The notes under the pieces: generated by a model
What the model was told of the DNA's origin: nothing
Database searches by the model: none
What the model saw: the letters and a program-made list of their open reading frames with translations, nothing else
Part shown: piece by piece, positions 49,358 to 51,139 of the stretch
Layout: every line of letters starts with the position of its first letter
How positions within the stretch are numbered: position 1 is the first letter of the stretch
DNA from: Thermoflavifilum thermophilum
GTDB taxonomy: Bacteria > Bacteroidota > Bacteroidia > Chitinophagales > Chitinophagaceae
Assembly: GCF_900116565.1 (NCBI RefSeq)
Contig: NZ_FPCJ01000001.1
Location: 992,001 to 1,056,000 of the forward strand
Direction of reading: 5' to 3'
DNA: 64,000 nt
Translations under genes and position numbers: made by a program

Positions 49358-51139
49358 TCAATAATCCACTTCCAGATCCAGCTCGTCTTGCAGACGGGCA
49401 ATCAGCGGATAATGCATTTTCAACTGTTCAAACTGTTGCTGGGGCGTAAGCACAGATTGGGTATCGGCAGGCGTTTCCTGTTCTTCCAGCAAAATTTTCA
49501 TCACCAATCCCGGTCTTGCGAGTTTTTCCTTCAGATATTCAGCTATATGAATTCTTTCTTCCTCCAGAAAGCGGAACTGTACAATGTTCCAGGTAGTGAC
49601 CTGAATTTCTTCCGGAGGCATAACGCCAATGCGCGCGTGTGTAAGCTGTGCAGCCAGCGCATGTTGACCTTTTTCCTGCAGCAGGGCAATGTAATGATCC
49701 CAGCATTGCTGTACCTGCTGAAGAGTCAGCGGTACCTGCACGGTATCGGTTGGTTGCCGGGATGTCTGACGATCTTTTTTAAGGGTTTCAAGCGTGGGGA
49801 GCTTACCGCTGGCAGTCATGCCAGGTTCACTCAACACCGGGCGAATGGATGTTGTAACCGAAGAAACGTATGGTGTGGGATTTTCTTTGACAGATGGGGA
49901 AGTCGATGGAATAGATCCTGGTTTGGGAATCGTTGTTGGTTTGGGGACGGCCTGAAAGGGAGCACGAAGCCGGGTTGACGCGCCTTCATGGATCAGCTTT
50001 TTTTTTACTACCTCGCCTGTGGCCACATCACTCACCAGCTGCACGGCCTGCTGCAAATAGCAAAGTTTAATAAAAGCAATTTCCAGCGTAAGCCTTTTGT
50101 TGCGTGAATTGCGGTATTGCACTTCTGCATCCTGCAACAAAGCCAGCGCACTTACCAGCCATGAAAGGCTGCATCGCTGAGCCATTTCAGCATATCGTTT
50201 TCTGAAGTTCTGGGCAATATCCAGCAGAGCTGTGAGTTTTTCATCTCTGCACACCATCAGATCCCGCAGAAATTCAGCCATTCCTTCCAGCACATTTTCA
50301 CCATCAAAACCCTTCTGCAAGATTTCATCCAAACAAAGCAAGGTTTGTGCGATATCCTGTTGATGAATGGATTCCATCAGCCGGAAATAATACTCCACAT
50401 TCAGCATGTTCAAATGCGCCAGAGCCTGCTGATAAGTGATATGACCTCCTGTAAAACTCACCAGTGTATCGAATATACTCAGCGCATCGCGCATGCATCC
50501 CTCGCTTTTCTGAGCTATCAGATGCAAAGCTTCTTCTTCAGCTTGCACCTGCTCTTTGGCACAGATTCCCTGCAAATGATGCACAATATCATGCAGGGTA
50601 ATGCGCCTGAAATCAAATACCTGACAGCGGCTCAGAATCGTGGGCAGGATTTTGTGTTTTTCGGTTGTAGCCAAAATGAAAATAGCATAAGATGGTGGCT
50701 CTTCCAATGTTTTCAGGAATGCATTGAAAGCGGCCGTACTGAGCATGTGCACCTCATCGATGATATAGGTTTTGTAACGAGCTCCCTGGGGTGGAAAACG
50801 CACCTGATCAACCAGTGCACGGATATCATCTACCGAATTGTTGGATGCCGCATCCAGTTCGTGGATGTTAAAAGATGTGCCCTGGTTGAAGGCTACACAG
50901 GATGCACATTGATTGCAGGCCTCTCCATCGGGACGAAGGTTTTCACAGTTGATGGTTTTGGCAAGGATGCGTGCACAGGTTGTCTTTCCTACTCCTCGCG
51001 GACCGCAGAACAAAAAAGCATGTGCCAGTTGCTTTTGCAGAATGGCATTCTTAAGCGTGGTGGTAATGTGTGATTGTCCGACAACGGATGCGAAATCCTG
51101 CGGACGATATTTCCGTGCTGAAACCAGAAAATGCTCCAT
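49358..51139 (-). CDS. dnaX: DNA polymerase III gamma/tau clamp-loader subunit
   Basis: The 593-residue product has the AAA+ clamp-loader ATPase: Walker A GPRGVGKT (46-53), a four-cysteine zinc site (Cys65, Cys75, Cys78, Cys81), Walker B YIIDEVHML and the SRC motif (LSRCQVF). Domain III runs to about residue 370, and a variable tau-like tail follows. At the domain III/tail border, codons 379-381 form a run of nine A (minus-strand 50006-49998). A -1 slip there reaches a stop after four codons and a +1 slip reaches a stop almost at once, so a short gamma form of about 381-384 residues could be made. The gene lies between the GNAT-like gene (24 bases upstream) and E2. Confidence 0.95.
   Translation of the reverse strand: MEHFLVSARKYRPQDFASVVGQSHITTTLKNAILQKQLAHAFLFCGPRGVGKTTCARILAKTINCENLRPDGEACNQCASCVAFNQGTSFNIHELDAASNNSVDDIRALVDQVRFPPQGARYKTYIIDEVHMLSTAAFNAFLKTLEEPPSYAIFILATTEKHKILPTILSRCQVFDFRRITLHDIVHHLQGICAKEQVQAEEEALHLIAQKSEGCMRDALSIFDTLVSFTGGHITYQQALAHLNMLNVEYYFRLMESIHQQDIAQTLLCLDEILQKGFDGENVLEGMAEFLRDLMVCRDEKLTALLDIAQNFRKRYAEMAQRCSLSWLVSALALLQDAEVQYRNSRNKRLTLEIAFIKLCYLQQAVQLVSDVATGEVVKKKLIHEGASTRLRAPFQAVPKPTTIPKPGSIPSTSPSVKENPTPYVSSVTTSIRPVLSEPGMTASGKLPTLETLKKDRQTSRQPTDTVQVPLTLQQVQQCWDHYIALLQEKGQHALAAQLTHARIGVMPPEEIQVTTWNIVQFRFLEEERIHIAEYLKEKLARPGLVMKILLEEQETPADTQSVLTPQQQFEQLKMHYPLIARLQDELDLEVDY
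49998..50006 (-). other. A9 slippery run in dnaX
   Basis: On the coding strand GTA AAA AAA AAG gives nine consecutive A. A -1 shift reads AAA GCT GAT CCA TGA, and a +1 shift reads AGC TGA. Runs of A in dnaX drive gamma production in E. coli (ribosomal -1 slip) and in Thermus (transcriptional slippage on A9). Here the location at the end of domain III is the expected one. A8 runs occur elsewhere in this window, so the run alone is not proof. Confidence 0.6.

Follow-up and report, generated by a model that had tools for sequence, protein, structure and literature searches.

An A9 run in dnaX of Thermoflavifilum thermophilum is probably a selected slippage site for the production of gamma beside tau

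The window analyzed here (the whole stretch of 64,000 nucleotides, with a G+C content of 46.8%) contains a dnaX gene with nine A's in a row near the end of the part that encodes the clamp-loader core. The question raised by this locus is whether the run is a site of slippage that allows a short protein, gamma, to be made beside full-length tau and, if so, whether it is the ribosome or RNA polymerase that slips. The product was identified as DnaX in profile searches (NCBIfam PRK14971, 706.8 bits with a cut-off of 685; TIGR02397 spanning residues 6-360), and the features of the gene are as follows.

49358..51139, minus strand: dnaX, a single ORF for tau (593 aa), from the ORF list, family matches and predicted structure
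50018..51139, minus strand: clamp-loader core (residues 1-374) with the AAA+ module, lid and domain III, from the predicted model; DNA_pol3_gamma3 at 251-365
49998..50006, minus strand: candidate slippery run A9, read from the letters, 4 to 7 residues past the last core helix
49997..50003, minus strand: A_AAA_AAG heptamer within the A9, read from the letters, in the same frame as the E. coli dnaX shift site (PMC5009743)
49993..49995, minus strand: +1-frame TGA; loss of one A would give ...KKS, 381 aa
49986..49988, minus strand: -1-frame TGA; gain of one A would give ...KKKADP, 384 aa
49799..50017, minus strand: low-confidence, probably disordered linker (residues 375-447), from the AlphaFold model
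49379..49723, minus strand: C-terminal tau domain (residues 473-587), which gamma would lack, from the AlphaFold model and tail homology among relatives

The run is made up of the last base of GTA (codon 378), AAA AAA, and the AA of AAG (codon 381). It is followed in the -1 frame by AAA GCT GAT CCA TGA, with three codons ahead of the stop, and in the +1 frame by AGC TGA, with one. A preliminary description of this DNA had reported an A9 in dnaX with stops in both shifted frames, and it was found that both the run and the stops are present as described, including the ADP and TGA that a -1 slip would reach and the almost immediate TGA after a +1 slip. The run had been assigned to codons 379-381, whereas its exact span is codons 378-381.

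In the AlphaFold model of DnaX (mean pLDDT 74, pTM 0.47), the core matched E. coli clamp-loader subunits in a Foldseek search. The last core helix comprises residues 348-374, model confidence is below 50 from about residue 371, and the run, at residues 378-381, lies just past the end of this helix, in agreement with the earlier claim that it stands where the clamp-loader core ends and the tau tail begins. Because the helix is followed directly by a low-confidence stretch, the run thus appears to be the first point at which the chain could be cut without damage to the core. Judged from sequence and predicted structure, the shorter product corresponds to the clamp-loader core minus the tau tail. 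In E. coli, domains IV and V of tau are described as binding the helicase and polymerase (PMC11470591); if the same is assumed for the present DnaX, gamma would retain clamp loading and lose the tau contacts.

Counts of runs within the window do not distinguish the A9 from chance: there is one A9 compared to a mean of 2.94 in dinucleotide shuffles and eight A8 matches compared to 10.05, and across the whole genome A9 matches 25 times, at 23 distinct sites on the two strands, several of them inside other ORFs. The A8 runs elsewhere in the window, which had been cited, under the names batE and polA, as a reason to consider chance, do exist: a long ORF of about 942 aa holds two (30394 and 32063) and another, of about 266 aa, holds one (7553). 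There is an additional A8 at 1504 in an ORF of about 523 aa. Counting runs was therefore rejected as a chance test, being too weak because the A9 number in the window is ordinary. The window A9 alone is no more than chance, and it is the relatives that carry the case. Four further A9 or A10 sites common to two genus members (L218, L242, L245 and L246) were seen by blastn, and so one A9 conserved between two species is not unique to dnaX.

The comparison was made with three sets of dnaX genes. The family set came from 111 genomes (110 of 195, plus one genus member), the named set consisted of 80 phylum-wide loci that were the best 80 of at least 592, and the phylum set added 88 loci from 118 genomes drawn from the phylum, of which 90 were covered when two already included are counted. 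The choice of genes was manual, with about one or two for each genus or family group and odd ones included; because short or split matches had priority, two-ORF genes may be over-represented. Removal of one cut-off gene and four duplicates left 274 distinct genes (110 family, 78 named and 86 phylum). Two of the family genes proved identical to the Terrimonas ferruginea and Longitalea luteola records over the core plus 50 codons (duplicates L016/L121 and L046/L122); we take both species to belong to Chitinophagaceae, in agreement with the family of the window. Outside the 274 genes, 27 class-level genes and 60 loci of two genera were used. The run was sought in the 400 nt past the position that matches residue 352.

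A run of at least nine A's was found soon after the core in 222 of the 274 genes, which are related and hence not independent samples (103/110 in the family, 60/78 among the named loci and 59/86 in the phylum sample), and all but one of these runs begin within 44 codons of the residue-352 position. Run lengths cluster at 9 and 10, with A8 in two genes only, and the longest A-run inside the core is never more than 8. When amino acids were kept fixed and codons were drawn from each gene's own usage, 43.6 of the 108 single-ORF family genes were expected to have such a run, compared to 102 observed; the corresponding numbers were 15.8 expected and 44 observed of 56 for the named set and 10.5 expected and 33 observed of 60 for the phylum sample. 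In none of the three sets did any of 20,000 simulations reach the observed count. The flanking ORFs (delimited mechanically, at least 150 codons, both strands) held only 6 runs of this length in 284 kb. In the genus, an A9 in the tau frame with three codons before the -1 stop and one before the +1 stop was present in 5/5 genomes searched. Unusually long runs occur at the dnaX site of L379 (A14, frame kept), L170 (A13) and L149 (A12).

The conservation in related Chitinophagaceae that the preliminary description had asked for is thus seen, and interruption of the run by synonymous change, which it had named as counting against slippage, is confined to an AAG inside the run in 1 of the 110 family genes (L050); in addition, the third codon of L092 is AAG, with a run of A8. 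The run is lacking (no A-run of nine or more) in 52 of the 274 genes, and so production of gamma by this route is not universal. Among the named loci, it is absent from 15 of the 29 in Bacteroidales and from 3 of the 13 that are assigned no further than Bacteroidota or Bacteroidia, compared to none of the 36 in the other groups (0 of 35 in Chitinophagales, Sphingobacteriales, Cytophagales, Flavobacteriales, Saprospirales and Marinilabiliales). This difference between Bacteroidales and the other orders lends itself to asking what takes the place of gamma. The run was present in 19 of the 27 extra class-level genes, which were obtained from 30 loci that were best matches to the Bacteroidales gene L176 and not a random draw.

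The close off-frame stops are conserved as well. Of the 102 single-ORF family genes with the run, 97% have a -1 stop no more than 4 codons away and 93% a +1 stop no more than 10 codons away, where the backgrounds are 31% and 47%, respectively. The mean distances in the family were 2.2 codons for -1 and 4.9 for +1, compared to 12.7 and 10.3 after synonymous resampling, and in the 77 remaining single-ORF genes they were 1.5 and 5.3, compared to 9.0 and 18.0; for each frame, in the family and in the rest, 0 of 300 resamplings were as short as observed. The +1 effect in the family is an absence of long distances, since +1 stops within 3 codons make up 46% compared to 42% after resampling. For the five genes of the genus alone, near stops are present in both non-zero frames at distances not beyond resampling (29 and 46 of 300 were as short). 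If shifts occur in both directions, as they would with RNA polymerase, selection should also act on the +1 frame; a -1 ribosomal shift alone would give no such expectation. The kept run and these stops support the earlier proposal of A-run slippage as the source of gamma.

The codon phase of the run and the residues that it encodes have changed repeatedly. The run starts in all three phases, with at least 46 phase changes on a core tree made with FastTree only and counted without comparison to shuffled labels. In genus g7, a member of which is about 84% identical in DNA to Chitinophaga terrae dnaX, the third lysine is replaced by asparagine with the A9 kept (L391-L394, L396, L397 and L412). 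Where the third codon is AAG, AAC or AAT, the codon ahead of the run has A as its last base in 23/24 family genes and 59/59 of the rest, compared to 25/80 and 37/52 where the third codon is AAA (three genes with AAG inside the run are excluded from this count, and probabilities derived from it treat related genes as independent). What is kept is thus the length of the run and not lysine. The extra A ahead of the heptamer would not be needed for a ribosomal shift on A_AAA_AAG.

The window gene, with one ORF of 593 aa, is not of the two-ORF type seen in some relatives, in which a frame-0 stop stands 0-8 codons past the run (44 genes: 43 with at least nine A's, plus L040 with A8). A tau tail was matched in a shifted frame in 42 of the 44, in -1 for 41 (L040 included) and in +1 for L277; L150 is cut off at the contig end, and L170, also cut, had no significant tau-tail match. 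The open tail of the 43 genes with at least nine A's is in -1 in 41, in +1 in one and unassigned in one. Because frame 0 stops right after the run and the tail lies in another frame, tau would require slippage in these genes. On the same core tree, the gene changed between the one-ORF and the two-ORF layout at least 22 times, which is hard to explain unless slippage already gives both products. As a warning for annotation, an apparently truncated dnaX in two-ORF members is probably intact.

There were also odd cases. L277, the only +1 case among the two-ORF genes in the set of 274, lacks 2 bases directly after the run compared to 29 genus relatives, a loss that may be real or an assembly error. 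Odd lengths or split ORFs occur in one-contig assemblies (L040/L390 with A8, L366 with A9 and split, L418 and L485 with A7), and the open tail of L418 is in the +1 frame; these may be true indels for which slippage compensates, or errors in the sequencing of homopolymers. The phylum-level groups with many same-layout species are independent of these one-contig cases.

Two explanations do without slippage in expression. The run could be a product of chance, or of selection at the protein level for a linker rich in lysine in a genome that prefers AAA, and have no slippage function. The ordinary A9 number in the window and the 23 sites in the genome agree with this, as does the codon usage of the genus, in which AAA makes up 73% of lysine codons outside the run; with amino acids fixed, the resampled chance of a run of nine or more is about 0.4 per family gene. 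We nevertheless consider it the least probable of the alternatives, and very improbable in itself, because such runs greatly exceed expectation in the family and are scarce in the flanking ORFs, the preceding codon is coupled to the third codon, the off-frame stops are nearer than resampled, and two-ORF genes need slipping to make tau. Run-length change in the DNA itself, that is, phase variation that switches between tau and gamma, would account for related species that differ by a few A's (the A8 of L040/L390, A9 of L366, A7 of L418 and A14 of L379). It is nearly as improbable, because frame-keeping lengths dominate (28/30 loci in one genus and 27/30 in another), several odd cases are in one-contig assemblies in which homopolymer error is possible, and outright loss of tau in a subpopulation would probably be harmful to replication.

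A more serious alternative concerns the ribosome. The preliminary description had left the E. coli and Thermus types undivided; slippage as such is supported, and the evidence leans to the Thermus type. Programmed -1 ribosomal frameshifting of the E. coli type on A_AAA_AAG would yield gamma of 384 aa, with the longer run merely an aid; we regard this as unlikely, though clearly less so than the two explanations above. The heptamer is in the right frame at 49997-50003 with a near -1 stop, the -1 stops are the nearest and most constant, the two-ORF relatives are mostly of the -1 kind (41/43), and a GAGG is present upstream at 50011-50014. Shine-Dalgarno (SD)-like tetramers upstream of the run are about twice the background (family 22% compared to 9%, rest 18% compared to 9%, two-ORF genes 21% compared to 10%). 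However, GAGG occurs in only 2/5 genus members and SD-like tetramers in 22/102 family genes, so that no conserved upstream stimulator was found, although the tetramers are above background. Folding of the 60 nt past the run, in which simple stem-loops only were considered, likewise gave no sign of a structure conserved there (mean z of 0.1 for the genus and -0.3 for 102 family genes). A hairpin just 3' of the window run (-10.9 kcal/mol, 40 nt) was rejected as a candidate, since over 60 nt it does not stand out from shuffles (z 0.58). A ribosomal shift would need neither the floor of nine A's nor the extra A before the heptamer, and it does not predict +1 stops that are on average also nearer than resampled. 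Furthermore, the genome has both tRNA-Lys UUU and CUU (L422 and L423; 30 of 41 tRNA loci scanned), Bacteroidia ribosomes are reported to fail at recognizing SD sequences (PMC9976891), and SD-aided shifting in prfB is reported to be low in Flavobacterium johnsoniae (PMC12421855).

RNA-polymerase slippage therefore fits better than ribosomal frameshifting of the E. coli type, on account of the floor of nine, the stops in both frames, the lack of a conserved hairpin, the second tRNA-Lys, the extra A before the heptamer and the SD-blind ribosomes of Bacteroidia. Efficient bacterial slippage has been reported at nine A's, and the Thermus hybrid is given as 9-10 bp (PMC5009743). The same source describes Thermus dnaX mRNAs with one or more additional A's, and so the mostly -1 tails of the two-ORF genes fit RNA polymerase also; their -1 excess fits ribosomal -1 shifts or insertion-biased slippage equally. 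The two kinds of slippage may act together.

We conclude that the A9 is quite probably a selected slippage site that makes gamma (381-384 aa) beside tau (593 aa), mainly by RNA polymerase. In this model, RNA polymerase copying nine template T's would slip and produce mRNAs with extra or missing A's. Those in which the run is changed by a multiple of three would encode tau, and the others would reach a stop within one to three more codons and encode gamma, which would keep the whole clamp-loader core and lose the linker and the C-terminal tau domain. The data themselves show the layout of the gene, its conservation in the phylum sample, selection at the nucleotide level on run length and on the stops of both frames, and the existence of relatives for which slipping is the one way to tau. 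The occurrence of slipping in this species, its mainly transcriptional nature, its rate and the entry of gamma into the clamp loader are points that we infer.

Among known systems, Thermus thermophilus dnaX, for which transcriptional slippage at an A9 is described (PMC5009743, PMC1088944), is alike in its A9 within a single tau ORF, near stops in both frames, two lysine tRNAs and a shorter gamma. T. thermophilus is likewise given two lysine tRNAs in PMC5009743, in which a separate AAG tRNA is a suggested reason for this route and not a strictly defining one. It differs in that the run lies about 64% along the gene here (codon 378 of 593) compared to seven-eighths in Thermus, and in that the present site is conserved across another phylum; on every sequence feature compared, the window gene agrees with the Thermus type. 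The GeneTack cluster of 17 two-ORF dnaX genes from 12 genera, nine of them with 10 A's, for which a transcriptional route was proposed (PMC3711429), shares the A-run at the junction and a tau tail in -1 with the two-ORF relatives, whereas the window gene is single-ORF; the GeneTack screen sought frame breaks (PMC3711429). E. coli dnaX, with ribosomal frameshifting at A_AAA_AAG (PMC5009743), shares the heptamer in the tau frame, the near -1 stop and a gamma product, and it differs in that the conserved SD and hairpin are absent here, the run is longer, and a second tRNA-Lys and a near +1 stop are present.

Slippage in dnaX is itself known from Thermus, and what is new is how widely and how strongly selection acts over a phylum; no account of phylum-wide dnaX slippage in Bacteroidota was found in the open-licence literature searched. 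We tentatively suggest, as something short of an even chance, that RNA-polymerase slippage at A9-A10 is the ancestral and general Bacteroidota route to gamma and tau, favored by SD-blind ribosomes, with a run of mostly 9-11 A's in any phase, and that where the run was lost in some gut Bacteroidales it was perhaps replaced by recoding, for example at an in-frame UAG in a shared 14-base context. Whether the short gamma matters was long a subject of controversy in E. coli (PMC5009743). Selection that maintains a slippage site over a phylum, while its frame, residues and layout change, would argue strongly and independently for a cellular need of both forms, and Bacteroidota would then be a phylum that exploits errors of transcription instead of avoiding them.

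Other possible junction signals were seen in genes that lack the long A-run. Three genes of uncultured Bacteroidota/Bacteroidales, L153 (codon 367), L175 (codon 368) and L176 (codon 367), have an in-frame TAG at the core/tail junction in the shared context CATAGATTGCWAGG, past which the frame is open for 189-254 codons that match tau tails. UAG readthrough, re-initiation or other recoding could yield gamma and tau in these genes; no account of dnaX readthrough was found in the parts of the open-licence literature covered. A pattern search for relatives of these genes gave no match in 395 genomes, and no in-frame stop was found among the matches listed, which represent part of the 257 matching genomes of 295. 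Since no further TAG relatives were found, this lead rests on three records. In L186, a Bacteroidales MAG with no A-run longer than 5, a TAA follows codon 383 and the tau tail is in the +1 frame (E 4.7e-18), which indicates either another frameshift signal or an assembly error.
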